From contig NZ_BCSS01000021.1 of assembly GCF_001570985.1 (NCBI RefSeq), positions 1 through 57,629 of the forward strand: a stretch of 57,629 bases of DNA, given 5' to 3'. Below are positions 19,078 to 49,716 of this stretch, one piece after another; position 1 is the stretch's first letter; every line of letters starts with the position of its first letter. This DNA comes from Janibacter limosus NBRC 16128 (GTDB taxonomy: Bacteria > Actinomycetota > Actinomycetes > Actinomycetales > Dermatophilaceae). Under the pieces are notes generated by a model. That model saw only the letters and a program-made list of their open reading frames with translations. It searched no databases and had not been told where the DNA came from. A program made the position numbers and the translations under genes.

Positions 19078-20205
19078 GTGTCGGACTGGACCCTCTTGGC
19101 GCTCGCCATCGCCCTCTCGCTGGCCCTCATCGGCGTCGTCGTCGGGCTCGTTCTGGCCGGCCCCGGCGCGGCACGCGCCACCCGCGGACGCCGCCGGCCG
19201 GAGCGCAGCAGCTTCCGCAAGGGGGGCAAGAGCGCGCGCGAGCGGCGCGCGGCGATCATCATCAACCCGACCAAGTTCGACGATGTCGCCCTCGTCCGGG
19301 CGGAGCTGACGGCGGCGAGCACCCGACTCGGCTGGGTCGAACCCCTCTTCATCGAGACGACGGCGCAGGACCCCGGCACCGGTCAGGCCCGGCTGGCGCT
19401 CGAGGAGGGCGTGGACCTCGTCTGCCCCCTCGGCGGTGACGGCACCACCCGCGCGGTTGCGGTGGCGCTCGCCGGGACGCGCACCCCGATGGGGCTGCTG
19501 CCCAAGGGCACCGGCAACCTGCTGGCCCGCAACCTGGACATCCCCGTGGGCGCCGACCTCGTGCCGGCGCTGCAGGTGGCCTACAGCGGCCGCAACAAGG
19601 CGGTCGACGTGGCGTGGCTCGAGCTCGACCCCGCGGAGGAGCCGGCCACGGACGACTCGGGCCAGGCCGAGGAGCCGGTCGAGGGCCCGCCCGTGCAGCG
19701 TCACCCCTTCCTCGTCATGGCGGGCATGGGCTTCGACGCCGAGATCATGGGCGGCACGAGCGAGGAGTTCAAGGCGCGGGTCGGCTGGAGCGCCTACTTC
19801 GTCACCGGGTTCCGCAAGCTCTTCGTCAAGCGCTTCCGCGTGCGGTGGAGCATCGACGGGCGCGTCCAGGAGCCGGTGCTCGCGCGCACGATCCTCATCT
19901 GCAACTGCGGCACCCTCCAGGGCGGCATCCAGCTCGTCCCGAGCGGCCGCGTCGACGACGGTCAGCTCGACGGCGTGGTCATCGCCCCCAAGACCCTCAT
20001 CGGCTGGGGTTCGATCGCGCTGCGCGTGCTCGGGCGCTCAGAGCGTGACGGCAACGAGATGATCCGCACGACCGGAACGCTCTACACGGTCGAGGTCGAC
20101 GAGCCGCACCCCGTCCAGGTCGACGGCGATGTCATCGGAGAGGCCTCCCGGCTGCGGGTGAGCGTCGACCCGCAGGCACTCATCGTGCGGGTGGCCGGGG
20201 CCTGA
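19078..20205 (+). CDS. diacylglycerol kinase-like lipid kinase
   Basis: A 375-residue protein with an N-terminal membrane helix (about residues 4-25), then a DAGK catalytic domain. The phosphate-binding GGDGTTRAV motif lies at about residue 119 and [12 protein letters not shown] at about 143; IINPTKFDD marks the domain start. The family phosphorylates diacylglycerol, sphingoid bases or other lipids with ATP. An acidic insertion at about 183-205 (rich in Glu, Asp and Pro) is unusual. The 3' end overlaps the convergent Ldh gene by 26 bases. The precise lipid is unknown. Confidence 0.93.
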
Positions 20206-21256
20206 GCCACTGCGGGTCCAGCCCACAGCTGGCCGCGATGTTCGCCAACCGCTCCAGCTGGGCTCCCGACAGGGTCACGCCGTGCTCCGCCGCCGCTCGC
20301 GCCCCGGCCACCGCCCGCACCCCCGGTGCGCGCGCGTCCTCGCCGGAGCCTGCGACGAGACGCAGGATCTGGTGCACGCGGTCGGCCAGGTCCACATCGT
20401 CCGTGGGAGCGATGGCGAGCATGAAGAGGCTCACGCCCTGCGCCTCGTCGTGCCGGGTGGGCAGGCCCACCTCGTCCCCGAAGCGCTCGCCACCGGCCAG
20501 CACGCCGGTGAGCACCTCGAGGGCCAGGCTGAGGCCGAAGCCTCGGTGCCCGCCGATGGGCTCGAGCAGGCCGGTGGTCCACAGCGAGGGGTCCCTCGTC
20601 GGCTCGCCGTCGCTGTCGCGGAGCACGCCATCGGGCAGCAGCTCGCCGCGCTCGTGGTACCCGTCCATCTCGCCGGTCGACATGGTCGTGGTGGCCGTGT
20701 CGTAGAGGATCCGCTCGTCGCCCTCACCGGGGGCGGCCAGGGCGTGACCCTGGTTGCCGACGACCCGACGACGGCCCCCGGGCGCTGCGATGAGCGCGGG
20801 GCCATTCGTGACGGCCAGTCCGATGCAGCCGCGGTCGGCAGCCAGGTCTGCGAAGTAGCCCATGGCGGCGGCAGAGGTCGCGCCGCGCACGGAGACCGCG
20901 GCCAGGCCCTGGGTCGTGGCCTTGTCCACCGCGCGCAGCATGGCGAGGGTCCCGGCAACCTGCCCCCAGGCGCCGTCGACGTCGATCAGCTGGTGGGCCG
21001 GACGGTCCTGGACGACCCGGATCCGCGGATCGGGGGTCGTGCCACCCGCCCGGATCCGCTGCACGCACTGGACGAGCTTGCTCGAGACCCCGTGCGCCGG
21101 CAGTCCGTGGGCGTCGGCCCACACGAGCGCGTCCGCCGTCCACGTCGCGTGCTCGGGCGGCATCCCCACCCCGACGAGGACATCGCGCGCCAGGTCGTGC
21201 AGGTCGCGAAGGGGGATGTGCTGCCGGATCTCGTCTGCGCTGGTCACGCGGCCCAT
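20180..21256 (-). CDS. Ldh family (malate/L-lactate dehydrogenase-type) NAD(P)-dependent oxidoreductase
   Basis: About 358 residues of the type II malate/lactate dehydrogenase superfamily, which includes ureidoglycolate dehydrogenase AllD, sulfolactate dehydrogenase and cyclic imino acid reductases. The catalytic His motif appears as LPAHGVSSKLV, and the NADP-binding segments as TNGPALIAAPGGRRRVVGNQ and GHRGFGLSLALEVL. The ATG at 21256 was chosen; GTG 21247 is possible, and the frame remains open to 21310. It is divergent from the diiron oxidase gene and shares with it the TGTGCAC-containing spacer, so it probably belongs to the same pathway, acting on a 2-hydroxy acid or a cyclic imine. Confidence 0.88.
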   Translation of the reverse strand: MGRVTSADEIRQHIPLRDLHDLARDVLVGVGMPPEHATWTADALVWADAHGLPAHGVSSKLVQCVQRIRAGGTTPDPRIRVVQDRPAHQLIDVDGAWGQVAGTLAMLRAVDKATTQGLAAVSVRGATSAAAMGYFADLAADRGCIGLAVTNGPALIAAPGGRRRVVGNQGHALAAPGEGDERILYDTATTTMSTGEMDGYHERGELLPDGVLRDSDGEPTRDPSLWTTGLLEPIGGHRGFGLSLALEVLTGVLAGGERFGDEVGLPTRHDEAQGVSLFMLAIAPTDDVDLADRVHQILRLVAGSGEDARAPGVRAVAGARAAAEHGVTLSGAQLERLANIAASCGLDPQWLRPRPPAR

Positions 21257-21290
21257 CGTGTCAGCGGCGGCCACTCGGGGCCTTGGTCCT

Positions 21291-21337
21291 TGTGCACGGA
21301 AAACAGGCATGATCCATGTGCACCATCACCCTAGAGT
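21291..21337 (+). promoter_or_regulatory. paired TGTGCAC operator and -10 for the diiron oxidase gene
   Basis: Two TGTGCAC sites (21291-21297 and 21317-21323) are separated by 19 bases. Eight bases after the second is TAGAGT (21332-21337), a good actinobacterial -10. The identical layout occurs upstream of the transporter at 34426. The core GTGCAC is palindromic, as expected for a dimeric regulator. The PucR-type regulator at 31160 is the likely binder (inference). Confidence 0.6.
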
Positions 21338-21413
21338 CGTGCCCCGCGGCGTCCTAGCGTGGAGTCATCGAACCAACCCCGGCTTACGAACCGGAAGAGA
21401 AAAGGTGACTGAC

Positions 21414-22133
21414 ATGGCAGAGCTGCTGTCCCAAGAGGACTTCCGCGCCGCGCTCCAGGATGCGATCAAGGGTCGCGAGGCCTCGACCGCCAACTTCAGC
21501 AAGGCTTGGGCCGAGGGCAAGCTCGAGCGCAAGCACTTCGCCCGCTGGGCGGAGAACCACTACCACTACGTCGGCTTCTTCGCCGACTACCTGGGCCTCG
21601 TCTACCGCAACACCCCGGACAGCCACAAGGACGCCAAGGACTTCCTCCTGCAGAACATGTACGAGGAGGAGCTGGCCGACATCCGCCACACGGACCTGCT
21701 GGTCCGCTTCGCGGAGGCCTGCGGCACCACGGCCGAGCGCATCGAGGACCCGCGCAACATGAACGCCGTGACCCGCGGGCTGCAGGCGTGGTGCTACCAG
21801 ATCGCCGACCGTGAGCACTATGTCGTCGCGACCGCCGCACTGGTCGTCGGCCTTGAGTCCCAGGTCCCGCAGATCTACACCAAGCAGATCATCCCCCTGC
21901 GCGAGACCTACGGCTTCACCGAGGACGAGATCGAGTTCTTCGACCTGCACATCACCTCGGACGTCGTCCACGGCGAGCGCGGCTACCAGATCGTGCTCGA
22001 GGGCGCGGACACCCCCGAGCTGCAGCAGCGTTGCCTCGAGGCCGTGCGCATCGGCGCCGAGATGCGCTTCAGCTACACGAAGTCCCTCTACGACAGCTAT
22101 GTCGCCGAGGACCTCGAGCCCGCCGCGGCCTGA
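21414..22133 (+). CDS. heme-oxygenase-like diiron oxidase (HDO; TenA/PqqC/CADD-like fold)
   Basis: A 239-residue all-helical protein of the iron-containing redox enzyme family. All six ligand positions expected for an HDO diiron site are present: E85 and H92 (EEELADIRH), E148 (GLESQ), and H179, D183, H186 (HITSDVVH). As I recall it, the Chlamydia CADD site is E81, H88, E142, H174, D178, H181, with the same E-x6-H and H-x3-D-x2-H spacings. HDOs use O2 for N-oxygenation, C-C cleavage or decarboxylation. CADD's self-sacrificed Tyr is not at the matching place, so an external substrate is likely. It has an AAAGGTGA ribosome-binding site. A stem-loop separates it from the downstream Rieske and reductase genes, which could supply electrons. 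PQQ or thiamine roles are not supported by the neighbours. Confidence 0.85.
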   Translation: MAELLSQEDFRAALQDAIKGREASTANFSKAWAEGKLERKHFARWAENHYHYVGFFADYLGLVYRNTPDSHKDAKDFLLQNMYEEELADIRHTDLLVRFAEACGTTAERIEDPRNMNAVTRGLQAWCYQIADREHYVVATAALVVGLESQVPQIYTKQIIPLRETYGFTEDEIEFFDLHITSDVVHGERGYQIVLEGADTPELQQRCLEAVRIGAEMRFSYTKSLYDSYVAEDLEPAAA

Positions 22134-22146
22134 CCGCCACGACCAC

Positions 22147-22177
22147 AAGAGCGGGCGCCGCCCCGGCGCCCGCTCTT
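22147..22177 (+). terminator. stem-loop between the diiron oxidase and Rieske genes
   Basis: A perfect 14-base-pair stem (AAGAGCGGGCGCCG and its complement) with a CCC loop lies 13 bases after the diiron oxidase stop. It would end most transcripts or stabilise the 3' end, giving the oxidase a higher mRNA level than the rest of the operon. Confidence 0.7.
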
Positions 22178-22234
22178 GCTCTACCCACTTTCGCCCCGCC
22201 GGCCACCGGCACCACACCCCACAGGAGCAGGACG

Positions 22235-22585
22235 ATGAGCACCTGGCACGACGTCGGCAACGTCAAGGACCTGAAGCTTCGCAAGAAGAAGGCCGTCGAG
22301 ATCGACGAAACCCCGATCGCCCTCTTCTACGTCGGCAGCACGGTCTACGCCCTCAACGACATCTGCATCCACGAGGAGCGCCGCCTCAGCAAGGGGACCC
22401 TCCTCTTCGGGAAGGTCATCTGCCCCGGCCACCAGTGGAAGTTCGACCCGGCCACCGGTGAACCCGAGGACCAGGACGGGTGCCAGCCCACGTATGCAGT
22501 GCGGGTGGCCGAGGACGGCACCATCTCGGTGAGTCTCGACCCCGCGGACAAGACCGCCGACTCGGGAGTGGTGACCACGGCATGA
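22235..22585 (+). CDS. Rieske [2Fe-2S] ferredoxin, NirD-like
   Basis: A 116-residue small Rieske protein. The cluster ligands are C44 and H46 (CIH) and C63 and H66 (CPGH), 16 residues apart, in the fold of NirD or dioxygenase ferredoxin components. It should carry single electrons in the cytoplasm. The stop overlaps the ATG of the FAD reductase by 4 bases, and such pairs form the electron chain NAD(P)H to FAD to Rieske to oxygenase. The nearest oxygenase candidate is the upstream diiron oxidase, since no Rieske oxygenase alpha subunit is present. A CAGGAG element precedes the ATG. Confidence 0.93.
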   Translation: MSTWHDVGNVKDLKLRKKKAVEIDETPIALFYVGSTVYALNDICIHEERRLSKGTLLFGKVICPGHQWKFDPATGEPEDQDGCQPTYAVRVAEDGTISVSLDPADKTADSGVVTTA

Positions 22586-23814
22586 GCGAGACGACCTCCC
22601 CCCTTCCCGCCGGCGTCGTCATCGTCGGTGGCGGCCAGTCCGCTGCCGTCGCGAGCCGCACGCTGCGCCGCAAGAAGTACACCGGACCGATCACCATCCT
22701 CGGATCCGAGCCGCACCGCCCCTACCAGCGGCCGCCGCTGTCCAAGGAGTACCTCGCGGACGCCGACTCCAGCATCGAGCTCCTGCCCGAGGACTGGACC
22801 ACCACCAACGACGTGCTCGTGCGCACGGACGTGACCGTCGAGCGCGTCGAGCCCGGGCCGGTCGTCGTCACCACCGGCGGCGAGCGCATCGCCGCCGACG
22901 CGGTCCTCCTCGCGACCGGCGGCAGTCCCCGGACCCTCGGCGAGGCCACCGGCGAGCGGATCCACTACCTGCGCACCCGAGATGATGCCGACCGCCTCCG
23001 CTCCGCCCTGGGCAGCTCGTCACGCCTGGCGATCGTCGGCGCCGGGTTCATCGGCGCCGAGATCGCGTCTGCAGCACGGGACGCGGGCGTGGACGTCACC
23101 GTCATCGAGGCCGCCGACCAACCGATGCAACGCGCACTCGGAGCCGATCTGGCCGGCGTCTGCGCACGCCTCCAGCGCGAGCGGGGCATCGACCTGCAGC
23201 TGACCACCGCAGTACGTGCCGTGCGCGAGAGCGCGGACGGCGTCGTCGTCGAGACCGACCGTGGTGAGGTGCACGCCGACCACGTCGTCGTGGCGATCGG
23301 GATCGTGCCCGACACCCAGGTCGCCGAGGCCTCCGGCATCGACTGCGACAACGGGATCCTGGTCGATGCCTCCTGCCGCACGAGCATGCCCGGCGTCTGG
23401 GCGGCCGGCGACGTCGCCAACCAGGACCACCCCCTCGTCGACGGGCGCGTGCGTGTCGAGCACTTCGACAATGCGAGCAAGCAGGCCTCCGTCGCCGCCC
23501 AGTCGATGCTCGGTGCGGACATCACCAACTCCGACCCGCACTGGTACTGGTCGGACCAGTTCGGAGTGAACCTCCAGGGCGTCGGCCACCCCGAGCCCGG
23601 GGACCAGATGGTCGTCCGCGGCGACCTCGAGGGCGCGAGCTTCACCGCCTTCTTCATCCGCGAAGGCGCCGTCAGCGCCGTCTTCGCCCTCAACGACGAG
23701 GAGACGGTCGGTCTGGCCCGCGAACTCGTCAACATGGGCGCGAGCGTCCCCGTCGAACTGCTCACGGATCCCGAACGGGATCTCTTCGAGGCCCTGGAAG
23801 GAGCCGCGTCATGA
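22582..23814 (+). CDS. FAD-dependent ferredoxin reductase
   Basis: A 410-residue pyridine nucleotide-disulfide-type reductase of the oxygenase-coupled ferredoxin reductase group. The FAD site VVIVGGGQSAAV is at about residue 12, the NAD(P) site LAIVGAGFIGAEIA at about 149, and the second FAD motif GVWAAGDVAN at 271-280; a Reductase_C-like domain ends the protein. There is no redox CxxxxC pair, consistent with electron transfer to an iron-sulfur protein rather than a disulfide. It overlaps both neighbours (Rieske and aldehyde dehydrogenase) by 4 bases, indicating tight coupling. Confidence 0.95.
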   Translation: MSETTSPLPAGVVIVGGGQSAAVASRTLRRKKYTGPITILGSEPHRPYQRPPLSKEYLADADSSIELLPEDWTTTNDVLVRTDVTVERVEPGPVVVTTGGERIAADAVLLATGGSPRTLGEATGERIHYLRTRDDADRLRSALGSSSRLAIVGAGFIGAEIASAARDAGVDVTVIEAADQPMQRALGADLAGVCARLQRERGIDLQLTTAVRAVRESADGVVVETDRGEVHADHVVVAIGIVPDTQVAEASGIDCDNGILVDASCRTSMPGVWAAGDVANQDHPLVDGRVRVEHFDNASKQASVAAQSMLGADITNSDPHWYWSDQFGVNLQGVGHPEPGDQMVVRGDLEGASFTAFFIREGAVSAVFALNDEETVGLARELVNMGASVPVELLTDPERDLFEALEGAAS

Positions 23815-25256
23815 CCCGACTCAAGGGCAACTACATCGGAGGTGACTGGGTGTGGCCCGCCTCCGCCGCCTCCTTCGATCGCACCAACCCGGCACGACCG
23901 GACGAGGTGGTCTCCACCGCTCCGGAGTCGACCAGCACCGATGTCGACGACGCCGTCGCGCACCTGGCCGAGCACCGGCACGAGTGGGCCGCCACGTCGC
24001 CGGAGAAGCGCGCTGACGTCCTCGTCGCAGCCGCCGACATCCTCGCGACCCAGGCCCAGGACCTCGCCGTCGAGCTGGTCCGGGAGGAGGGCAAGACCCT
24101 CGCCGAGGCCACCATGGAGACGACGCGCACCCCTCAGAACCTGCGCTTCTTCGCCGGCGAGGCGCTGCGCATGACCGGAGAGACGTACCCGACCGGGGAC
24201 GGCAGCCTCGTCTTCTCGCGTCGCGAGCCCGTGGGCATCGTCGCGGCCATCACCCCGTGGAACTTCCCGCTCAACATCCCCTCGCGCAAGCTCGGGCCGG
24301 CACTCGCCGCAGGCAACGCGGTCATCTTCAAGCCCAGCGAGGTCACCCCGCTGATGGGTCAGCGCCTGGTCGAGGCCCTCGTCCAGGCGGGGGTGCCGTC
24401 GGGCGCGCTCGCACTCGTCCACGGCCACGCCGAGGTCGGACGGGCGATGGTGGCCAATGACGAGGTCAACGCCGTCACCTTCACCGGCTCCACCGAGGTG
24501 GGTACTGCCATCCACGGCGTCACCGGCGTCGACGTGCGGACCCAGCTGGAGATGGGTGGCAAGAACGCGCTCGTCGTGCTCGAGGACTCCGACCTCGACC
24601 GGGCCGCCGCCATCATCGCCAAGGGAGCCTTCGGGCTCTCCGGCCAGGCCTGCACCGGCACCTCCCGCGTCGTCGTGCACGAGGCGGTCGCCGACGAGCT
24701 GGTCCGTCGCATCAGCCAGGTGGCCCAGGCTGCCCGCGTCGGCAACGGGCTCGACGAGGGCGTCACCTTCGGCCCCCTGGCCAACCGTGCCCAGATCGAC
24801 AAGTTCTGCCACTACGTCGAGGGCGCCACGTCCCAGGGCGCGGTCCTCGTCGACCCGGCCGACCACCAGGCCGACCCGCCGGGTGGCGGCTACTTCGTGC
24901 GACCGACGATCTTCAGGGATGTCGACCCGCTGTCGGACCTGGCCCAGGAGGAGGTCTTCTCCCCCGTGCTCGCCTTCATCACCGTCTCGTCCTACGACGA
25001 GGCCGTGCGGGTGGTCAACAACACCAAGTACGGACTCTCCGCGGGGATCGTGACCTCCGAGATCTCCCGGGCGATCCGCTTCTCCGAGGACGTCGCCACC
25101 GGCCTGGTCAAGGTCAACCAGGCGACCAACGGCATGGCCATGAACGCTCCCTTCGGCGGCATGAAGCACTCCTCGACGCAGACCTTCAAGGAGCAGGCCG
25201 GCGCCTCGATGATGAGCTTCTACACCACCGACAAGACCGTCTACTTCACCCCCTGA
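23811..25256 (+). CDS. NAD(P)-dependent aldehyde dehydrogenase
   Basis: A 481-residue ALDH with all catalytic residues visible: N151 (PWNFP), E247 (QLEMGGKN) and C281 (GQACTG). The cofactor-binding FTGSTEVG is at about residue 224. The C-terminal pattern with TQTFKEQAGASMMSFYT resembles 2-oxoglutarate semialdehyde dehydrogenases and related enzymes, so a semialdehyde substrate is a reasonable guess. It should oxidise an aldehyde made by the upstream oxidase to a carboxylate. It begins within the reductase stop (ATGA) and is followed after 18 bases by a second Rieske gene. Confidence 0.95.
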   Translation: MTRLKGNYIGGDWVWPASAASFDRTNPARPDEVVSTAPESTSTDVDDAVAHLAEHRHEWAATSPEKRADVLVAAADILATQAQDLAVELVREEGKTLAEATMETTRTPQNLRFFAGEALRMTGETYPTGDGSLVFSRREPVGIVAAITPWNFPLNIPSRKLGPALAAGNAVIFKPSEVTPLMGQRLVEALVQAGVPSGALALVHGHAEVGRAMVANDEVNAVTFTGSTEVGTAIHGVTGVDVRTQLEMGGKNALVVLEDSDLDRAAAIIAKGAFGLSGQACTGTSRVVVHEAVADELVRRISQVAQAARVGNGLDEGVTFGPLANRAQIDKFCHYVEGATSQGAVLVDPADHQADPPGGGYFVRPTIFRDVDPLSDLAQEEVFSPVLAFITVSSYDEAVRVVNNTKYGLSAGIVTSEISRAIRFSEDVATGLVKVNQATNGMAMNAPFGGMKHSSTQTFKEQAGASMMSFYTTDKTVYFTP

Positions 25257-25274
25257 CCCGAGAGGAACAGCACG

Positions 25275-25682
25275 ATGAGTGAGCACAGCGAGACCACTGA
25301 GGACCGGCAGCCGGCGGACGACGAGGTCGTCTTCCACAAGGTCTGCCGCAGCGGCCAGGTTCCCGAGGGATATGTCCGGCGCTTCTACGTCGACGAGCTC
25401 GAGTGCGCCGTCGCCCGACTCAAGGGCAAGGCGTACGCGACGAGCAACTACTGCACGCACCTCGACTGCCTGCTGAGCAGCGGCAAGCTGCAGGACGACG
25501 GCATCCGGTGCTCCTGCCACGGAAGCGTCTTCGAGCTCGAGGGTGGCGAGCCGATCTACCCGCCCGCCACGGCGCCCATCGCCATCTACCAGGTCAAGGA
25601 AGAAGAGGGGGAGGTCTACGTCGGCGTGAGCCGCAAGGACATCGAGCACGGCGGACCGCGCCGCAAGAAGCCTCGCGAATGA
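25275..25682 (+). CDS. second Rieske [2Fe-2S] protein
   Basis: A 135-residue Rieske protein distinct from the first in this operon. The ligands are C60 and H62 (CTH) and C79 and H82 (CSCH), within the classic CSCHGSVFEL motif. It has an N-terminal acidic extension and a basic tail (RRKKPRE). Two extra cysteines (C65 and C81) beside the ligand loops could form the disulfide seen in bc1-type and some high-potential Rieske proteins, which the first Rieske protein lacks. The two may therefore have different potentials. The stop overlaps the start of the Ntn hydrolase gene. Confidence 0.93.
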   Translation: MSEHSETTEDRQPADDEVVFHKVCRSGQVPEGYVRRFYVDELECAVARLKGKAYATSNYCTHLDCLLSSGKLQDDGIRCSCHGSVFELEGGEPIYPPATAPIAIYQVKEEEGEVYVGVSRKDIEHGGPRRKKPRE

Positions 25683-27298
25683 CCTCAGCAACGACACCCG
25701 TCGCCCTCGGCCAGATGCAACAGGTCGTGCTGGGCCGATCCTCCGCGATCGCGTCCAGCCACCCACTCATCACGGCCGAGGGCGCTCGGGTGCTCGCGGC
25801 CGGTGGCAATGCCATCGACGCGAGCCTGGCCATGGCAGCCGTCAGCTGGGTGGTCCTGCCCGGCCAGTGCGGCATCGGCGGCGATGTCTTCGCGATCGTC
25901 CGCGAACCGGACGGCCGCGTGTGGACCGCAGGCGGCAGCGGCTACGGACCCGACGGTGGCACCGCCGACTTCTATCGCTCGCAGGGCCACTCCGCCATCC
26001 CCCTCACGGGAGCGCTCTCGGTGTCCGTCCCGGGGGCACCGGCCGCCCACGCCCTCCTGGCCGCGCACGCCCGCTGGGACCTGTCGCAGCTCTGGGCCAA
26101 CGGGATCTCCTTGGCACGCAACGGCTTCGCGTGCACCAGCAAGAACCGTGCCGACATCACCGAGCGGCAGGTGCCGCTGGCCGCCGACCCCTCGACGGCC
26201 GCCTGCTTCCTCCCTGACGGGCGAGTCCCTGCCGTCGGTCGCCTGCTCCACCAGAGGGACCTGGCCGACACGCTCGAGGTCCTCGCCAAGGACCCGCTCT
26301 CCTTCTACCGAGGCGACCTCGCCGAGCGCAGTCTCGACTTCCTGATGACCGGGGGTGCCCCCTTCTCCGGCGACGAGTGGGCTGCCGGCGCCGACCTGCT
26401 CGCCGAGCCGGCGATCAGCGCACGCTACGGCGACCTGACCCTGCACCAGACACCACTCCCTTCGGCCGGATGGATGGTGCTGCACCAGGCCGGCCTCCTC
26501 GACGGGTCGCTCCCCGACCTCGACCTCCTCGGACCCTCGGCGTGCGCACTCTTCGCCGGGGCCGCACGCGCGGCCTTCGACGACCGCTTCGCCACGGTCA
26601 ACGCGGACAACGGCGCGTGGCAGGAGCTGCTGGACCCGGAGCGGCTCGCCGCCCAGCGCGTCGGCCTCGGGGCCCCGTCCGCGGCTGCGGTCCCGGCACG
26701 GATCGACGGCGACACGACGAGCACCGTGTGCGTCGATGACGAAGGCCGCACGGTGAGCTTCATCCACTCGCTCGCCTTCACCTTCGGCGCGCGCATCACC
26801 GTGCCCGGCACCGGCGTCGTGCTCAACAACCGCCTGGGTCGAGGTGCCTACCTGGTGCCCGGCCATCTCAACGAGGTCGCTCCCCGTCGCAAGCCGCTGC
26901 ACACCCTCAATGCCTGGATCGCCGACGACGCCGACGGCCTGCGCCACGCCGGCAACTGTCCCGGTGGCGACGGTCAGGTGCAGTGGAACATGCAGGTGAT
27001 CAGCCACCTCGTGGACCACGGCCTGGACCCGCAGCAGGCGGTCTCCCTCCCTCGCCTGACCGTCTTCCCCGGCTCCGACGCCGACGTCGTCGACGAGCCC
27101 TCCGAGGTGCGGGTCGAGGAGGGGCTGCCGCAGGCCACCCTCGAGAGCCTGCGCACCGCCGGGCACCTCGTCCGGGAGATCCCGGTGCAGCGAGGCGGTC
27201 CCGGTGGATCCGCGCTGGCCGTCTCCCGTGACCCGAGATCCGGCGTGCTCTCCGCCGGCGCCGACCCCCGCATGGAAGGAACCGCTGTCGCATGGTGA
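25679..27298 (+). CDS. gamma-glutamyltransferase-family Ntn hydrolase (cytoplasmic)
   Basis: A 539-residue protein of the GGT family, expected to cleave itself to expose an N-terminal Thr. The predicted nucleophile is T346 in GDTTSTVCVDDEG, matching the TTHYSVVD motif of classical GGTs; GGNAIDASLA near residue 42 and the late PGGDGQ segment are also typical. There is no signal peptide, unlike secreted GGTs. In length and location it is closer to cytoplasmic amidohydrolases of this family such as oxamate amidohydrolase HpxW. It probably hydrolyses an amide or gamma-glutamyl bond in the pathway. It overlaps both neighbouring genes. Confidence 0.9.
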   Translation: MTSATTPVALGQMQQVVLGRSSAIASSHPLITAEGARVLAAGGNAIDASLAMAAVSWVVLPGQCGIGGDVFAIVREPDGRVWTAGGSGYGPDGGTADFYRSQGHSAIPLTGALSVSVPGAPAAHALLAAHARWDLSQLWANGISLARNGFACTSKNRADITERQVPLAADPSTAACFLPDGRVPAVGRLLHQRDLADTLEVLAKDPLSFYRGDLAERSLDFLMTGGAPFSGDEWAAGADLLAEPAISARYGDLTLHQTPLPSAGWMVLHQAGLLDGSLPDLDLLGPSACALFAGAARAAFDDRFATVNADNGAWQELLDPERLAAQRVGLGAPSAAAVPARIDGDTTSTVCVDDEGRTVSFIHSLAFTFGARITVPGTGVVLNNRLGRGAYLVPGHLNEVAPRRKPLHTLNAWIADDADGLRHAGNCPGGDGQVQWNMQVISHLVDHGLDPQQAVSLPRLTVFPGSDADVVDEPSEVRVEEGLPQATLESLRTAGHLVREIPVQRGGPGGSALAVSRDPRSGVLSAGADPRMEGTAVAW

Positions 27299-27729
27299 CC
27301 CCACCGCAGCTCCCACCGCCACCCCGTCCGCAGGGGCACTACGTCCCCACGAGCCGGTCCGGGGACATCGTCACCACCGCTGGCATGACGCCGCGGGTCG
27401 ACGGCACGCTCGCCGTCACCGGACGGGTCGGCGACGCCGTCGACCTCGACGGGGCCAAGGACGCCGCCACCATCGCCGTGTCCAATGCCCTCTCCGCCCT
27501 CGCCGAGGCGGCCGGTGGCCTTGATCGCATCCGCAGCCTGCTGCGGATGACCGTGTACGTGCACGCCGCCAGCGGGTTCACCCAGCACTCCGCGGTGGCC
27601 GACGCCGCGACCGACACCCTCGTCACCTACCTGGGGGGCCGCGGAGTCTGCGCGCGCTCGGCCGTCGGCGTCGCCAGCCTGCCGGGCGATGCCCCGCTCG
27701 AGATCGAGCTGACCGCCGTCATCTCCTGA
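27292..27729 (+). CDS. RidA family protein (enamine/imine deaminase-like)
   Basis: A 145-residue YjgF/RidA fold. The key arginine R122 in ARSAVGVASLPGDAPLEIE, which binds the carboxylate of imino acids in active members, is conserved. Family members hydrolyse reactive enamines or imines to ketones plus ammonia, or act in pathway steps as RutC does. Placement at the end of the operon suggests it handles an imine produced by the oxidase or the Ldh-family enzyme. The start overlaps the Ntn hydrolase stop region by 7 bases. A bidirectional terminator follows. Confidence 0.92.
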   Translation: MVTPPQLPPPPRPQGHYVPTSRSGDIVTTAGMTPRVDGTLAVTGRVGDAVDLDGAKDAATIAVSNALSALAEAAGGLDRIRSLLRMTVYVHAASGFTQHSAVADAATDTLVTYLGGRGVCARSAVGVASLPGDAPLEIELTAVIS

Positions 27730-27786: not shown

Positions 27787-28389
27787 TCACGGCCTGAAGA
27801 TCTCCGCGGAATCGATGACCCGACCGAAGGCGGACCCGAAGCTCACCAGGGAGGCCCGGTGCAGCTCGGGGGTCGCCGCGGCCAGGCAGTCGGCGACCAA
27901 GACGGTGTCCAGCCCGAGCATCATCGCGTCACGGGCCGTGGCCTCGCAGCAGATGTTGGTCTGGGTCCCCGCGATGTGCAGCGAGGTGATCCCGCGCTCC
28001 TCGAGGAGCAGCTGCAGGCCACCGTCCGGCTCGACCATCGCGCTGTACCGGTACTTCAGGACCACGTCGTCCTGTGCCGCTGCCTGCATGCCGTGCCACA
28101 ACGCGTGCCCGTGCGACCCCTCGGCGAGGACACCCGTGCGGAAGTCCATGGCCTCCTCACCGAGCAGGTGCCGCAGGCTCGGCCAGTCCGCCGGCGAGGG
28201 TCGACTGGTCGTCTGCACCCAGACCACCGGGGCACCGACCTCGCGGAACCGTCGGGCGAGGGCGTTGATCGGGTCGACGATGTCCAGCGCCGCAGGAGCG
28301 AAGCGGAAGCCGACGTCGGGGTCGAGGAAGGCATTTTGCATGTCGATGATCGCCAGCGCCGAGCGGCGCGGGTCCTGGGTCGCGGCCAT
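27787..28389 (-). CDS. isochorismatase-like cysteine hydrolase
   Basis: A 200-residue hydrolase with the D-K-C triad of the isochorismatase-like amidases: D16 (AIIDMQNAF), K112 (VVLKYRYSAM) and C147 (TQTNICCEATARDA). Members include nicotinamidase, N-carbamoylsarcosine amidase, maleamate amidase and ureidoacrylate amidase RutB; the substrate here is unknown but an amide is most likely. The ATG overlaps the stop of the transporter gene (ATGA), so the protein probably acts on what that transporter brings in or on a downstream intermediate. Confidence 0.92.
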   Translation of the reverse strand: MAATQDPRRSALAIIDMQNAFLDPDVGFRFAPAALDIVDPINALARRFREVGAPVVWVQTTSRPSPADWPSLRHLLGEEAMDFRTGVLAEGSHGHALWHGMQAAAQDDVVLKYRYSAMVEPDGGLQLLLEERGITSLHIAGTQTNICCEATARDAMMLGLDTVLVADCLAAATPELHRASLVSFGSAFGRVIDSAEIFRP

Positions 28390-29885
28390 CAGAAGAGCAC
28401 CCCCGCAGCCAGCGTCGCGACGACCAGGCCGGAGACGACAGGGATGAAGAGCCGTCTGACGAGCTCGACCACCGGGACACCGGTCACGCCGGCGACCGCG
28501 ACGAGCGATGACCAGACCACGAGGGTGCCACCTCCGGTCCAGGAGGCGGCGTTCTGACCGATGGCCGCGAGCGTCTCGGGAGCCACGCCGGCCGCCGGGC
28601 CGAGGGCCACGGACAGCGACCCGATGAGGGGCAGGCCGGCCCATCCGGACCCGTCGAGCCCGATGAGCATGCCCGCCACCATCAGGGCCAGGCACGTGGC
28701 AGGCGCGAAGGCCGGGACGTGGTCCTGCCCGGAGACGATGACGTCGAAGAGGAAGGCCGGCGGGTTGGCGCCCTCGGGCAAGGACATGATCGTCCCGGAG
28801 AAGTCACCCACACCCATCAGCACGAACCCCGCGACGGGCAGCACCGCGCCCATCGCCTTGTAGGCGAAGACGAGTCCGTCGACGATGTTGTCGGCCACCG
28901 CCTCGAGCGGTTCGGCGGCGCTGAGGAAGCAGATGGCGAAGAGGAGGGCGAAGCCCACACCACCGATGAGCGCTGCCCCCGAGATCTCCTCGAGCACGGC
29001 GAAGAGGTCGGTGAACCTGGACAGGAAGAGCACGATCACCATGGCGAGGAACCCGACGGGCACGACGATCGCCATGATCCGCTTCTGCCGGTCCGAGGTG
29101 GGTCGCTCCTCGTAGCCGACCCCGTCCCCGACGCTCAGGATCCCCTCGTCCCGGACGGCCTCCACGGGGTCGGTCTCCCGACGGGTCAGACCCGCGGACA
29201 CCGCGCTGACGACCTCACGGGAGCGCGACAACGGGGTCTCCCCGCTGGCCACCACGAGCTGACCGCGGGAGGTCACGAAGTAGGCCAAGGACGCCGCGAC
29301 ACCACCGACGATCCACGACAGGATGAGCGCCCGGTGGGCGATGAGGTCCGCGTCGAGGTGGCCGCCGCTGGCCGTGATGCCCGGCGCCACGCCCATGACG
29401 TAGTCCGAGGCCAGCGCCATCCCCTGCCCGGAGATGGCCACCGCGATGGCCGCACCCAGTCGGGTCAGGCCGGCAGCGATGGCCGCAGGGATGAGCACGG
29501 CCGCCAGGATCGCCAGTGTGGGCGTCGGCCAGAAGACGAGCGACATCAGGTAGGACGCGACGAAGAGGACACCGAAGGCCAGGTGCCCGTTGCGCATGAA
29601 GCGCACCAACGGGCGCAGCATCCGCGCGTCGATGTCCATCCCGCGCATGGCCCCGGTGAGCGCACCGATGACCGCGAGCACCAGGAAGATGTTGAGCAGC
29701 TCGGTCGTGGCCACGATCAGGCCGTTGAAGGGGGCGGCGAGTCCCTTGAAGAAGGACCCGGTGAAGGCCCAGGCCGTGATGCCCGTGGCGATGACGGCCG
29801 GGACGATGACATTGCGTCGCATCGCCATGACGACGAGCAGGACGATGACGCCGGCGATATAGAACCAGTGCGCGTGCTCGCTCAT
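28389..29885 (-). CDS. putative ion-transporter-like permease (copy 1)
   Basis: A 498-residue membrane protein with about 11-12 hydrophobic helices. It has conserved blocks FWPTPTLAILAA, ISGQGMALASDYVMGVAPG, DGLVFAYKAMGAVLPVAG and LDGSGWAGLPL, all shared with a second copy at 34426-35976. The layout resembles CitMHS/DcuC/GntP-like anion transporters (two halves with re-entrant loops), so import of an organic acid or zwitterion is plausible. A charged cytoplasmic loop lies around 210-260. Its ATG overlaps the stop of a possible 25-residue ORF, and its stop overlaps the amidase start. Confidence 0.85.
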   Translation of the reverse strand: MSEHAHWFYIAGVIVLLVVMAMRRNVIVPAVIATGITAWAFTGSFFKGLAAPFNGLIVATTELLNIFLVLAVIGALTGAMRGMDIDARMLRPLVRFMRNGHLAFGVLFVASYLMSLVFWPTPTLAILAAVLIPAAIAAGLTRLGAAIAVAISGQGMALASDYVMGVAPGITASGGHLDADLIAHRALILSWIVGGVAASLAYFVTSRGQLVVASGETPLSRSREVVSAVSAGLTRRETDPVEAVRDEGILSVGDGVGYEERPTSDRQKRIMAIVVPVGFLAMVIVLFLSRFTDLFAVLEEISGAALIGGVGFALLFAICFLSAAEPLEAVADNIVDGLVFAYKAMGAVLPVAGFVLMGVGDFSGTIMSLPEGANPPAFLFDVIVSGQDHVPAFAPATCLALMVAGMLIGLDGSGWAGLPLIGSLSVALGPAAGVAPETLAAIGQNAASWTGGGTLVVWSSLVAVAGVTGVPVVELVRRLFIPVVSGLVVATLAAGVLF

Positions 29886-30590: not shown

Positions 30591-31043
30591 TCAGGTCGGG
30601 GGGTTGGCCGCGAGGTGCTCGGCGAGGGCCTCGATGGCAGCCGCACCGACGGCCTTGTCCTGCTCGCCGTTGCCGCCGGAGACACCGATGCCGCCGATGA
30701 TCTGACCGTCGTACTCGAGCGGGAAGCCGCCGACGAAGATGGCGAACTTGCCGGGCAGCATGTGGCTGATCCCGAAGGCCTCGTTGCCCGGGAGTGCCGG
30801 GCCGTTCGGCTCCTCGTTGAACTTGTGGGTCGCCCGCTCGTGACCGGCGGCGGTGAAGGCCTTGGCGATGGAGATGTCGACCCCGGTGAGGCGCGCGCCG
30901 GGGATGCGGTGCAGGGCGATGACATTGCCGCTCTCGTCGACGACGCACAGGGTCTGCTTCACCCCGATCTCATCGGCCTTGGCCCGGGCCGCCGCCAGGA
31001 TCGGCAGGGCGTCGTCGAGAGTGATGCGGTAGATCGAGTGCAT
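30591..31043 (-). CDS. GlcG/HbpS family protein
   Basis: A 150-residue GlcG/HbpS fold protein starting MHSIYRITLDDALPILAAARAK (given here as MHSIYRITL and DDALPILAAARAK), with the family C-terminal motif GFPLEYDGQIIGGIGVSGG. HbpS of Streptomyces binds heme and is secreted; this copy lacks a signal peptide and is cytoplasmic. GlcG-type proteins are frequent in catabolic operons, but their role is poorly defined. It is divergent from the PucR-type regulator and shares its promoter region. Confidence 0.88.
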   Translation of the reverse strand: MHSIYRITLDDALPILAAARAKADEIGVKQTLCVVDESGNVIALHRIPGARLTGVDISIAKAFTAAGHERATHKFNEEPNGPALPGNEAFGISHMLPGKFAIFVGGFPLEYDGQIIGGIGVSGGNGEQDKAVGAAAIEALAEHLAANPPT

Positions 31044-31159: not shown

Positions 31160-32839
31160 ATGGACATGTTGGCCCCCGAGGTCTCGGAGCACCTCACGAT
31201 CGCCCGACTCCTGGAGGAGCACGCCCTGCGCAATGCGGTGCCGATCTGCGACGGCGACCGGACCGCCCCACTGGAGTGGGCCCGCTCCGCTCAGGAGGCA
31301 CTGGCCAACGCCAGCGACCTGAGCCGCACCGTCATCGTGGGTGACGACGGGGTGCTCACCCCCGAGGTGCTGTCCGTCCTCGAGGAGCGCGATGCGGCAC
31401 TCGTCCTCGTCCGGGAGCCCAGCGAGTCACGCTGGGCCACGGCCTCCACCCGGCTGCCCGTCTTCGGCTTCACCTCGGGCACGTCGATCGACGGCGTCAT
31501 CCGGCTGGTGGCCCAGCTGGCCCTGGCGCACGAGAGCCACGTCCTGCGATATGCGACGAGCATCCACGAGCGCCTGGCGTCGCTGCTGCACCGCGGGGCC
31601 GGGATGGAGGCGATCTGCCAACAGCTCGAGCGCCTCACCGACTGCGCAGTCGCCTTCCTCGACACCTCCAACACCCTGCAGGCCGTCGCCCGGGACCGGC
31701 ATCCCTGGCTCGACTCCAGCACTGCCGGGTCGATCGCTCGCAAGGTGAGTGCCGAGGAGGGCAGCCTCCCGCGCGCCCTCGACACCCACCACCAGCCGGT
31801 GCACGAGCACGAGATCGACGTCGAGGAGCACACCGTCCAGGTCCTCGTGGCCCCCGTCATGGTCGCCGACCGCTCCGAGGGGTGGCTCGTGCTCATCGCC
31901 GCCTCCGACGAGCACACGGCACACGACACGGCCAGCCGCGTGATCGCCCTCCAGGAGGCGGTGTCGATCATCGGCACCGAGGTCCTGCGGATGCGCAGCA
32001 TCGAGCGCGCCGAGGAGCGGGCACGCGGCAACTTCGTCCACGCCCTGCTGCACGGACGCTTCTCCAACACCGCCGACCTCGTGGCCCGGGCCGCCCACCG
32101 CCGCTTCCCCACGGATCGCCGCTTCGGGGTCGTGATCGTCCAGGCCAAGGGGCTCATCGCCGAGAACGACTCACCGCAGCACCTGTCCAACATGGCCCGC
32201 ACGGCACTGCGGCTGCGCGGAGCCGAGGACCGGGCGGCGCTCTCCGCGGTGGTCGGGGACGTCATCGCCGTGGTCCGCGAGGTCGCGCCCGCGACCCGCT
32301 CGGGGGTCGACAAGGGCAGCGGGGAGCTCGGCGCCTATGCCAAGGCCCTGCACCGACGCCTGCAGGGCGAGACCCAACGGCACCTGCTCGTGGCCTACGG
32401 ACGTCCGGTCGACGGCGCGATGCAGATCAGCGACAGCTATCGCGAGGCGCGGATCGCCCTCTCACTGGCCGACCAGCTCGGCAAGGACGAGCCGGTCGGG
32501 TTCCTCGAGATGCGCACCCACGTGGCCCTCCTCGACCTCGCGCTCAGCACCAACGGCCGCTCCTTCGCCAGCGAGATGCTCACGCCGCTGCGCGAGGCCA
32601 CGGGGGACCTGGACGAGGCGGCACGGACCTACATCGAGGTCGGCGGCAACCTGACCCAGGCATCCCGCGACCTCAACGTCCACCGCAACACCATGCTGTA
32701 CAAGCTGGACCGCGCGTCCAAGGCCCTCGCCCAGGACCTCCGCGACCCCGAGACGCAGTTCTCGCTCTGGCTGGCGCTGAAGCTCGACCTGCTGGCCAAG
32801 ACGGCAGACAGCGCGTCGCGGGCCGTCGACTCCGGGTGA
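31160..32839 (+). CDS. PucR/CdaR family transcriptional regulator
   Basis: A 559-residue regulator: an N-terminal PucR-like sensory domain (about 8-140), a GAF-like middle, a degenerate GGDEF-like (CdaR) segment around 290-400 and a C-terminal PucR HTH with GGNLTQASRDLNVHRNTMLY and KLDRASKAL. Such proteins usually activate catabolic operons (purines, proline, sugar acids) in response to the substrate. It sits centrally in the diiron oxidase island and is the best candidate to bind the TGTGCAC pairs. The ATG at 31160 lies just after a -10-like box, suggesting leaderless translation; ATG 31166 is also possible. Confidence 0.92.
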   Translation: MDMLAPEVSEHLTIARLLEEHALRNAVPICDGDRTAPLEWARSAQEALANASDLSRTVIVGDDGVLTPEVLSVLEERDAALVLVREPSESRWATASTRLPVFGFTSGTSIDGVIRLVAQLALAHESHVLRYATSIHERLASLLHRGAGMEAICQQLERLTDCAVAFLDTSNTLQAVARDRHPWLDSSTAGSIARKVSAEEGSLPRALDTHHQPVHEHEIDVEEHTVQVLVAPVMVADRSEGWLVLIAASDEHTAHDTASRVIALQEAVSIIGTEVLRMRSIERAEERARGNFVHALLHGRFSNTADLVARAAHRRFPTDRRFGVVIVQAKGLIAENDSPQHLSNMARTALRLRGAEDRAALSAVVGDVIAVVREVAPATRSGVDKGSGELGAYAKALHRRLQGETQRHLLVAYGRPVDGAMQISDSYREARIALSLADQLGKDEPVGFLEMRTHVALLDLALSTNGRSFASEMLTPLREATGDLDEAARTYIEVGGNLTQASRDLNVHRNTMLYKLDRASKALAQDLRDPETQFSLWLALKLDLLAKTADSASRAVDSG

Positions 32840-32845
32840 TGTCGT

Positions 32846-32867
32846 CCGGCGGTGACGCTCACGCCGG
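32846..32867. terminator. short stem-loop between PucR-type and MFS genes
   Basis: CCGGC and GTGA pair with TCAC and GCCGG around a CGC loop with one bulged G. The hairpin spans the short gap between the two convergent genes and may terminate transcription in both directions. Confidence 0.4.
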
Positions 32868-34220
32868 GGTGGACACCGGCTCACGCTGAGGGCTGACTCC
32901 GACGAAGCTCACGATCAGGGCGAGCGCCGCCACCACGGCGGCACCTGCGAACATCGCTGCCCTGCCGTCGAGCGGGGTGAGGATCGCGACCCATGCGGCG
33001 CCGGCAGTCATCCCGGCGAAGCGCGTGAGGTTGAACAGCCCCAGCGCTGCTCCGTGCGCCCCGGCCGGCGATCGCGTCGCGCCCGTGGCGGCCGGCGTCT
33101 GGACCATCGCCATGGCCGCGCCGGCGAGCAGGAGGCATCCGGCGACGGCTGCGACGGCGGGTTCGAGGCCACGGACGACGAGCGCCGTGAGCACCCCGGT
33201 CAGCACCATGAGGGACAGGCCGACCCGCAGCACCGTGCGCGGGGAACCGCGCTCGGAGACGCGCCCGACGGCTGGTGCGGTGACGGCCATGACCACGGGC
33301 AGGATGAAGAAGAAGATCCCGGCCCGGCTGTACGACAGGTCCATCGGTCCGGTCAGCACGAGGGGGATCGCGACCAGCGAGGTGCCGAGGAGGAACATCT
33401 GCGCGAAGGCCGCGAAGCAGCTGCGCACGAAGCGCACCTCCGCGATCAGCCGGAGCGGGATCAGCGCCCGGGGGTTGCCGAGCGAGACCTTGATGAACCC
33501 CGCGAGCAGGGCGACCCCTGCCAGCGCGATCGCTGCGTCGAGCCAGAGGGCCACCGACGGCTGCGAGAGCAGGGTCGCCCCCAGCAGCACCAGGCCGGCC
33601 CCCAGCGTGAGCATCACGGCGCCCGCGATGTGGAAGTGGGAGGCCCGAGGGGCCAGGTGCGGCACCGTGGCCTGGATGACGACGAGCGCGATGACGGACA
33701 GCACCGCGACGAGGACGAAGACCGAACGCCACCCGAAGTAGTCCGAGAGCACGCCACCCACCGGCGGACCGATGGCCTGGCCGACACCGTTGGCAGCGGC
33801 CCACGCCCCCATCAACCGTCCCCGGCTCTCCGGGTAGACGACCATCAGGATGCCCATCACGAGCGGAGGGATGGCCGAGCAGGCCAAGCCCTGGACGGCC
33901 CGGGTCACGATGAGGAAGGGCAGGTTGGGCGCCAGCGCGGCGGCGACCTGGGCGACGCTCATCAGCGCCAGGGACCCGACCAGGACCCGCTTGCGCCCCA
34001 GGCGGTCACCGAGCCATCCGGTGAGCGGCAGGGAGATCGCGAGCATCAGGGTGAAGGCACTGACGCACAGGACCGCGTAGGCGACCGGCTGGTCGAAGTC
34101 GGCCGCGACCCGTCGCAGGGGGACGTTGATGATGTTGTTGGACATCGTGCCGATGATGGTGACGAGGAGCAGGGCCGCTGCGGCGACGGCGGCCGCGCGA
34201 CGATCGGACGTGACACTCAC
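32859..34220 (-). CDS. MFS transporter (DHA-like)
   Basis: A 453-residue major facilitator with at least 12 hydrophobic helices. The loop 2-3 motif GWLGDRLGRKRVLV (GxxxDRxGRR-like) is clear, and motif C-like GVGQAIGPPVGGVLSDYFGWR supports a drug/H+ antiporter (DHA2-like) class. It may export a toxic intermediate or import the substrate. GTG at 34220 was chosen, with AAGGGGGA upstream; the longer frame adds a non-membrane, unlikely N-terminus. It is divergent from transporter copy 2 and shares the TGTGCAC-containing spacer. Confidence 0.9.
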   Translation of the reverse strand: MSVTSDRRAAAVAAAALLLVTIIGTMSNNIINVPLRRVAADFDQPVAYAVLCVSAFTLMLAISLPLTGWLGDRLGRKRVLVGSLALMSVAQVAAALAPNLPFLIVTRAVQGLACSAIPPLVMGILMVVYPESRGRLMGAWAAANGVGQAIGPPVGGVLSDYFGWRSVFVLVAVLSVIALVVIQATVPHLAPRASHFHIAGAVMLTLGAGLVLLGATLLSQPSVALWLDAAIALAGVALLAGFIKVSLGNPRALIPLRLIAEVRFVRSCFAAFAQMFLLGTSLVAIPLVLTGPMDLSYSRAGIFFFILPVVMAVTAPAVGRVSERGSPRTVLRVGLSLMVLTGVLTALVVRGLEPAVAAVAGCLLLAGAAMAMVQTPAATGATRSPAGAHGAALGLFNLTRFAGMTAGAAWVAILTPLDGRAAMFAGAAVVAALALIVSFVGVSPQREPVSTPA

Positions 34221-34316
34221 CCGGTGGGTCCCCCTTCTCGCTCCTCGACACGCAGGGGAGGCAGTCGCCTCCCCACACCTACCCTGCAGCCAGGGCCATC
34301 GCCCACCAAGTGCAGA

Positions 34317-34363
34317 TGTGCACAGGATCTGCACCCGTCAACTGTGCACCAGTGACGTAGACC
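34317..34363 (+). promoter_or_regulatory. paired TGTGCAC operator and -10 for transporter copy 2
   Basis: TGTGCAC occurs at 34317-34323 and 34343-34349, 19 bases apart. TAGACC follows 8 bases after the second. This is the same layout and spacing as at 21291-21337. A further arm pair GTGCAGA/TCTGCAC (34310-34334) surrounds the first site. Confidence 0.6.
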
Positions 34364-49635: not shown

Positions 49636-49685
49636 GCGTCCGCACGAGGACCACTCTCGCTCCCCCTCGGCGGCCGAGCTCGCCG

Positions 49686-49691
49686 TAAGGT
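49686..49691 (+). promoter_or_regulatory. internal -10 candidate before lipoprotein paralogue 7
   Basis: TAAGGT lies 25 bases before the ATG at 49717, with a GAAGGGA ribosome-binding site in between. It falls in the only sizeable gap of the array and would allow separate expression of paralogues 7-9. Confidence 0.35.
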
Positions 49692-49716
49692 TGTCCGCGC
49701 CGACGAAGGGAATGAC

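Follow-up and report, generated by a model that had tools for sequence, protein, structure and literature searches.

A heme-oxygenase-like diiron protein with conserved, adjoining Rieske and FAD-reductase genes in a probably degradative gene unit of Janibacter limosus and other Actinomycetota

A stretch of 57,629 nucleotides from Janibacter limosus NBRC 16128 (contig NZ_BCSS01000021.1, positions 1 to 57,629; hereafter the window) encodes a heme-oxygenase-like diiron oxidase (HDO) that is probably the terminal oxidase of a multicomponent diiron oxygenase system degrading a small nitrogen-containing carboxylate. The HDO gene opens an operon on the plus strand (21414–27729), in which it is followed by the genes of a Rieske ferredoxin (Rieske 1), an FAD-dependent ferredoxin reductase (FdR), an aldehyde dehydrogenase (ALDH), a second Rieske protein (Rieske 2), an N-terminal nucleophile (Ntn) hydrolase with the fold of gamma-glutamyltransferase (GGT), and a RidA-family protein. 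Stop and start codons overlap at four junctions of the operon; the sole wide gap (101 bases) lies between HDO and Rieske 1. That the HDO is served by a dedicated Rieske/FAD-reductase chain is well supported.

The HDO (21414–22133, plus strand; 239 residues) is encoded by an open reading frame whose ATG start is preceded by a purine-rich stretch, and is present as a single copy in the J. limosus genome (search at E up to 0.001). It matches the Pfam models Haem_oxygenas_2 (4e-35; 121.7 bits against a cut-off of 28.9) and TENA_THI-4 (2e-9), and its profile aligns with chains of PabS, CADD, and PqqC. The residues E85, H92, E148, H179, D183, and H186, which the earlier note on this DNA had proposed as the ligands of a diiron site, have a CADD-like spacing and match positions of CADD that we take to be its metal ligands. 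All six are invariant among 11 orthologues from Actinomycetota and Burkholderiales and are conserved in 33 of the 34 members of a second set (the window and 33 actinobacterial loci). The structural comparison suggested by the earlier note points in the same direction: the AlphaFold2 model based on 34 sequences (predicted local distance difference test [pLDDT] 84.1, predicted template-modelling score 0.80; two of the five models exceed a pLDDT of 80, the other three reach 45–50) retrieves CADD (8va9, 1rcw) and PqqC first in a Foldseek search, followed by UndA and HrmI, with PolF ranking lower; the template-modelling (TM) scores against 1rcw_A are 0.77/0.86. The protein thus combines the predicted heme-oxygenase-like helical fold of the HDO class with its set of three histidines and three carboxylates (3H/3C), as assigned by alignment, which identifies it as a putative heme-oxygenase-like diiron protein that is nearest to Chlamydia CADD in both sequence and predicted fold.

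The conservation of the locus supports a dedicated electron chain. A contig scan with orthologue alignment yielded 560 pattern matches and 506 candidate relatives, of which the best-scoring 80 were kept, so that the set leans toward close relatives of the window locus. All 80 loci are actinobacterial, and 61 of them have at least 9 kb on each side (full-flank loci); a gene was counted as present when its tblastn match passed a cut-off set for this purpose. The loci represent 18 named genera (Janibacter, Blastococcus, Rhodococcus, Streptomyces, Nocardioides, Trujillonella, Mycolicibacterium, Gordonia, Nocardia, Micromonospora, Sciscionella, Amycolatopsis, Pseudonocardia, Geodermatophilus, Actinomadura, Prauserella, Saccharomonospora, and Qaidamihabitans) plus records labelled Mycobacterium, and the nearest named relatives of the window locus are from Janibacter; Rhodococcus jostii NBRC 16295 (L046) is among the carriers. 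The recurrence of the gene block across these 18 named genera argues against a chance association.

Rieske 1 (22235–22585, plus strand), which has the motif CxH...CPGH without extra cysteines, is encoded in 79 of the 80 loci, a few of them near contig ends and possibly partial; locus L045 is not counted because its tblastn match is a cross-hit to Rieske 2. HDO and Rieske 1 adjoin on one strand in 74 of the 75 loci that provide room for the test, L045 being the exception. The FdR (22582–23814, plus strand), which resembles HcaD and AndAa, is found in all 61 full-flank loci, with the N-terminal columns of its alignment covered in 54–55 loci only. HDO, Rieske 1, and FdR stand together in 73 of the 75 testable loci; the failures are L045 and L019, the latter solely through an overlap of the Rieske 1 and FdR genes. 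A Rieske oxygenase alpha subunit is encoded in none of the 80 loci, 61 of which extend at least 9 kb to each side, when searched by tblastn with a single alpha subunit that recovers both alpha subunits of the J. limosus genome. This bears out two points of the earlier note, which had described a Rieske/FAD-reductase chain beside the HDO and no alpha subunit, and had named as decisive whether the pair accompanies another oxygenase in relatives: the pair stays with the HDO, and no Rieske oxygenase alpha subunit was found at these loci by that single-query search. It is very likely that electrons flow from the Rieske/FAD chain to the HDO, and Rieske 1 is the likely immediate donor. NAD(P)H would reduce the FAD reductase, which would pass electrons via Rieske 1 to the diferric HDO, and the diferrous HDO would then activate O2.

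The slowest-changing members of the gene block are the HDO and an HbpS/DUF336 protein encoded further to the right, with median identities of 80% and 82%, respectively, compared with 35–66% for the remaining eight queries. In a class-level sample of 394 genomes, orthologues of the HDO (E below 1e-120) occur in five, and orthologues of Rieske 2 (E below 1e-45) occur in the same five, a few kilobases from the HDO; weak matches, which were not counted, comprise six further genomes with HDO-like proteins (2e-11 to 5e-4) and eight weaker matches to Rieske 2 (8e-24 to 4e-21). Within a family-level sample, an orthologue of the HDO is present in only 6 of 186 genomes (with a distant match in one more), indicating that the unit is patchily distributed.

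Rieske 2 (25275–25682, plus strand) was overlooked in the earlier note but is a core component, present in all 61 full-flank loci. Its motif, CTHLxC...CxCHGS, with two extra cysteines and a serine, is that of the Rieske proteins of bc1 and b6f complexes, in which the two cysteines are joined by a disulfide bond and the serine shifts the potential upward. Cys65, Cys81, and Ser84 are conserved in all 74 loci aligned, whereas Rieske 1 lacks extra cysteines at these positions; because the bc1-type motif is restricted to Rieske 2, the potentials of the two proteins probably differ. Despite this motif, the whole sequence of Rieske 2 is nearest to CarAc, the ferredoxin of a dioxygenase. With its bc1-like cluster environment, Rieske 2 would probably serve as an additional relay or gate of higher potential in the transfer of electrons to the HDO. 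Alternatively, it may stand outside the chain, serving as a redox sensor or cooperating with the Ntn hydrolase or with respiration. Such a role, which would fit both the divergent motif and the position of the gene next to that of the hydrolase in many loci, seems rather unlikely, because Rieske 2 directly follows FdR, with no intervening ALDH gene, in 15 of the 74 loci that have both, with ALDH and hydrolase located elsewhere or not found (L019 and L020 were put in the class of other FdR/ALDH arrangements owing to a 4-base overlap of the two genes). The same 15 loci suggest that HDO, Rieske 1, FdR, and Rieske 2 form a stable core.

The gap between HDO and Rieske 1 often harbors a hairpin. In the window (gap 22134–22234), it contains a GC-rich hairpin with a 13-bp stem (22148–22176, plus strand). 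Perfect stems of at least 9 bp are present in 45 of 74 gaps, whereas 30 dinucleotide-shuffled sets gave 0.8 on average and 3 at most (6 of the 80 gaps were dropped for length), and the folding z-score is −3 or lower in 35 of the 74. The position of the hairpin recurs in other genera (L019–L098), with differing sequences. The structure may make the HDO mRNA more stable or attenuate expression of the genes that follow, leaving the HDO in excess over its electron donors.

The enzymes encoded downstream, and the genes to the right of the operon, point to a degradative function. The unit extends rightward to about 35976, well beyond the gene set of the earlier note, and continues with genes for an isochorismatase-like hydrolase, a permease, and an HbpS/GlcG/DUF336 protein on the minus strand, followed by a PucR-type transcription regulator, a transporter of the major facilitator superfamily (MFS), and a second permease. 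The ALDH (23811–25256, plus strand; 60 of 61 full-flank loci) scores best with the NCBIfam models of 2,5-dioxovalerate and alpha-ketoglutaric-semialdehyde dehydrogenases, although below their cut-offs; Cys281 and Glu247, presumably its catalytic residues, are conserved in all 73 loci aligned. The RidA-family protein (27292–27729, plus strand; 61 of 61), which remains under the cut-offs of the NCBIfam RidA models, retains Arg122, which we take to be the catalytic arginine, in 69 of 69 loci aligned. The Ntn amidohydrolase (25679–27298, plus strand) is encoded in 59 of the 61 full-flank loci and carries Thr346/Thr347, presumably the site of the threonine nucleophile of GGTs, in 68 of 68 loci aligned. 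However, a function as gamma-glutamyltransferase was rejected, because Arg114, Asp433, and Ser462-Ser463 of the Escherichia coli GGT, which we assume to bind the gamma-glutamyl group, are replaced in the window hydrolase by Ser87 (conserved in 69 of 69 loci aligned), Gly/Arg, and His-Thr, respectively. The loss of these substrate-binding residues suggests that the enzyme probably acts on a different amide.

The HbpS/GlcG/DUF336 protein (30591–31043, minus strand), encoded in 59 of the 61 full-flank loci, has EfgA and NahX among its homologues. Its residues R46, K61, S122, and D129 correspond to R42, K57, S114, and D121 of EfgA and are conserved in all 70 loci aligned. According to the available part of the EfgA study, these four pocket residues are proposed to bind formaldehyde and are largely conserved among DUF336 homologues, and DUF336 genes occur in pathways with toxic aldehydes (PMC8153426). 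EfgA itself differs in that it senses formaldehyde and is nearly confined to methylotrophs (PMC8153426).

Two permeases of the same family are encoded at 28389–29885 (minus strand) and 34426–35976 (plus strand), both without a match in Pfam or NCBIfam. The former was initially considered the core transporter but was replaced by the latter, which is closer to the permease of the other loci. Relatives of the two occur in 68 of the 80 loci by clustering; a tblastn count of 54 of 61 was obtained with the less suitable paralogue as query and includes some misses at the flank edge. The model of the core permease (pLDDT 77) shows a weak likeness to MleN, TRAP-M, and DASS/INDY (four matches, E up to 0.001), a fold of organic-anion transporters, which suggests an organic anion as cargo. 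The PucR-type regulator (31160–32839, plus strand) is encoded in 60 of the 61 full-flank loci. The MFS transporter (32859–34334, minus strand), whose real start is probably internal, belongs to a single-linkage cluster with MFS genes in 65 of the 80 loci, but such clusters can mix paralogues, and that of the MFS proteins carries this risk.

Two enzymes do not belong to the core pathway: the Ldh_2-family dehydrogenase (20180–21310, minus strand), which is divergent from the operon, and the isochorismatase-like hydrolase (27787–28419, minus strand) are each found in 3 of the 80 loci (in 1 and 2 of the 61 full-flank loci, respectively) and appear to be local accessories. The part list of the earlier note, which comprised a Rieske ferredoxin, an FAD reductase, an ALDH, an Ntn hydrolase, RidA, and an Ldh-family enzyme, is confirmed by Pfam and NCBIfam, but its last item lies outside the core, and its catabolic operon remains likely by gene content once the Ldh-family enzyme is removed.

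The gene content of the unit makes a catabolic role quite likely. In the proposed pathway, the core permease would import a small nitrogen-containing carboxylate, and the HDO would oxidize it beside the nitrogen or with cleavage of a C–N or C–C bond, which would yield an imine or enamine and an aldehyde. RidA would hydrolyze the imine, ALDH would oxidize the aldehyde, the Ntn amidohydrolase would release amide or acyl nitrogen, and the EfgA-like DUF336 protein may bind or sense the aldehyde; PucR would regulate the unit. The combination of aldehyde and imine chemistry is a tentative proposal. Substrates suggested by the gene families (routes for hydroxyproline, ureides, 2-aminoisobutyrate, and oxamate) were considered, but none is singled out by the evidence.

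Alternatively, the unit may be biosynthetic or metabolite-modifying, with an HDO that acts on an amino-acid-like substrate in the manner of MboA, BesC, or PolF and an MFS protein that serves as exporter. The MFS protein indeed scores best with drug-efflux models, although under their cut-offs, and a review presents HDOs, of which about a dozen among more than 10,000 have been characterized, as biosynthetic enzymes (PMC13108848, available part). However, this alternative is unlikely. The gene clusters common to at least 29 sources (among the 80 loci, the window, and two plasmid loci) are those of the genes described above, together with a DUF1275 membrane protein and a shadow frame on the reverse strand; no enzyme of an obviously biosynthetic kind, such as a ligase or synthetase, was seen among these clusters. 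In addition, PucR, the amidohydrolase, RidA, ALDH, and a permease of the organic-anion type are better suited to degradation. The DUF1275 membrane protein is encoded near the HDO unit in 37 of the 80 loci (e.g., L030:9075–9827 and L075:1607–2335).

A second form of the locus is present on plasmids of Burkholderiales. A tblastn search of plasmids returned seven records, of which five were analyzed (a second record of C. metallidurans and a distant PqqC of Azospirillum were left out): three from Cupriavidus and two nearly identical plasmids from Caballeronia. Their HDOs are 66–69% identical to that of the window, and all five loci keep the ALDH (44–45%), the HbpS/DUF336 protein (54–56%), and a permease, which is 37–42% identical to 28389–29885 and 43–49% to 34426–35976 (two compared). 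None of the five has a match for Rieske 1, Rieske 2, FdR, the GGT-fold hydrolase, RidA, or PucR. Instead, they encode a reductase of the BenC type, a pair of small Fer2-type proteins, and a protein of the ornithine-cyclodeaminase family. The replacement of the Rieske/FAD chain by the BenC-like/Fer2 set suggests that the two lineages feed the HDO by unrelated chains. In all five loci, the two Fer2-type proteins flank a small protein without a Pfam match (L017:8044–9110; L018:10783–11730).

The different chain in Burkholderiales also bears on the possibility that the true partner of Rieske 1 and FdR is a Rieske oxygenase encoded elsewhere in the genome and that the two lie beside the HDO merely by operon history. 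The claim of the earlier note that the HDO is the only candidate oxygenase holds for the locus but not for the genome, which encodes two alpha subunits, both on contigs outside the window (C13 and C30). The alpha subunit on C13 has its own Rieske protein and FAD reductase at a distance of about 3 kb; that on C30 has no Rieske 1-, FdR-, or BenC-like gene within the 15 kb examined, which would fit such a partnership. Nevertheless, this partnership is quite improbable, given the near-constant company of HDO, Rieske 1, and FdR, the lack of alpha subunits at the 80 loci in the single-query tblastn search, and the presence of another type of reductase next to the HDO in Burkholderiales. A further adjoining pair of Rieske and FAD reductase genes is located on contig C23 (19519–20899).

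It is extremely improbable that the HDO is a self-sacrificial p-aminobenzoate (pABA) synthase of the CADD/PabS type that provides a folate precursor and has no relation to its neighbors: although 4-aminobenzoate synthases and CADD are the solved structures nearest to it in sequence, CADD is among the top fold matches, and the first two ligands are equally spaced, it reaches only 93.1 bits with TIGR04305 (cut-off 200), and pABA synthesis would not lead one to expect that genes for ALDH, RidA, the hydrolase, the permease, and the reductase stay linked to it. Moreover, Tyr27 and Lys152 of CADD (numbers counted on the alignment), which we take to be essential for pABA synthesis, are replaced by Ser29 and Gln158, neither of which varies among the 34 sequences, and the HDO is therefore not classed as a pABA synthase. 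An assignment to PqqC was likewise rejected (NCBIfam TIGR02111, 42.3 bits against a cut-off of 240), as was a role in defense, since PADLOC gave no match for the HDO. Among viral sequences, 17 pattern matches to the HDO include no genuine relative.

Several observations weigh against a degradative HDO system with a dedicated Rieske chain. The diiron site and the activation of O2 are predictions from fold and alignment, and the HDO of Geodermatophilus sabuli (L073) has a lysine instead of the metal-ligand glutamate at position 148, which may be a natural variant or a sequence error. In L045, a metagenome-assembled genome, the Rieske 1 gene (6601–6900) is truncated and lacks the cluster-binding part. 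Other HDOs run on chemical reductants or mediators, and a dedicated partner is presented as exceptional in the available part of the MboA/MboB report (PMC13185094). A Rieske oxygenase alpha/beta pair is encoded about 10 kb from the HDO in Caballeronia, although none was found at the loci of the three Cupriavidus plasmids. Catabolism is not proved by gene content, which could also belong to a pathway that modifies or detoxifies a metabolite. The ALDH is just 39–43% identical in 9 of the 75 loci with a match and is possibly not an orthologue there; the GGT-fold hydrolase is missing from 2 of the 61 full-flank loci, and RidA and the Ntn hydrolase are outside the invariant core because the plasmid loci lack both. 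The EfgA pocket is common among DUF336 proteins and hence no proof of aldehyde binding, and what the permease matches best (TM 0.60/0.65) is no conventional structure but an integrative model of MleN.

Parts of the proposed system have precedents. Among the HDOs, CADD and PabS share the fold and the spacing of the ligands but differ in the two residues replaced here and in gene context. The DUF336 protein shares sequence homology and four pocket residues with EfgA. Toluene-4-monooxygenase (T4MO) differs from the HDO in that its diiron hydroxylase is a four-helix bundle and works with a regulatory protein. It resembles the present system in that electrons pass from an FAD reductase via a Rieske ferredoxin to a diiron oxygenase (PMC7782822, available part). 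The same source describes AibH1H2GF, the 2-aminoisobutyrate hydroxylase of Rhodococcus, whose actinobacterial catabolic operon also includes a dehydrogenase and a transporter and in which a Rieske ferredoxin and a flavin reductase feed a non-Rieske diiron hydroxylase; however, this hydroxylase is a TIM barrel of the amidohydrolase superfamily, and the reductase has a 2Fe-2S domain and FMN (PMC7782822). MboA/MboB, described in 2026, is perhaps the first characterized pair of an HDO and its dedicated redox partner in the view of its authors, and likewise combines a 3H/3C diiron HDO with an adjoining NADH/flavin/2Fe-2S protein (PMC13185094, available part). It differs in forming part of a biosynthetic operon with amino-acid ligases, where it makes an alkyne on a tripeptide (mangotoxin acetylenase), and in having one reductase protein; a word search of the available text found no mention of Rieske proteins (PMC13185094). 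The reductase of the Burkholderiales form is of the general MboB type. In the available part of the HDO review, the word Rieske is used twice, for a Rieske dioxygenase and in the title of a reference (PMC13108848).

An HDO with a dedicated reductase is thus already known, as are Rieske/reductase chains that feed other diiron enzymes. The expectation of the earlier note that a dedicated chain for an HDO would be new is weakened by MboA/MboB, but that pair is biosynthetic and described without mention of a Rieske protein, and no description of an HDO with Rieske partners, or of the present unit, was found in the open-licence literature. Elsewhere in the window, a series of short lipoprotein-like genes (45983–51922) resembles tandem copies.

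Taken together, the findings permit a joint reading whose chances we put somewhat below even: the unit would represent a new class of degradative diiron oxygenases, in which an HDO draws its electrons from an FAD reductase and a pair of Rieske proteins that differ electrochemically; an old HDO core would have swapped its whole electron chain while keeping the ALDH, the EfgA-like protein, and the anion permease; and the system would cleave a common, unrecognized soil metabolite oxidatively to an aldehyde and an imine. If the unit is degradative, it would add a catabolic branch, defined by a conserved operon, to the HDOs. If the proposed system is real, it would equip HDO chemistry in vitro with a natural electron chain and provide a pointer to a soil metabolite whose breakdown is unmapped, and the differing partners in two phyla would constitute a natural test of the docking of redox proteins on HDOs.

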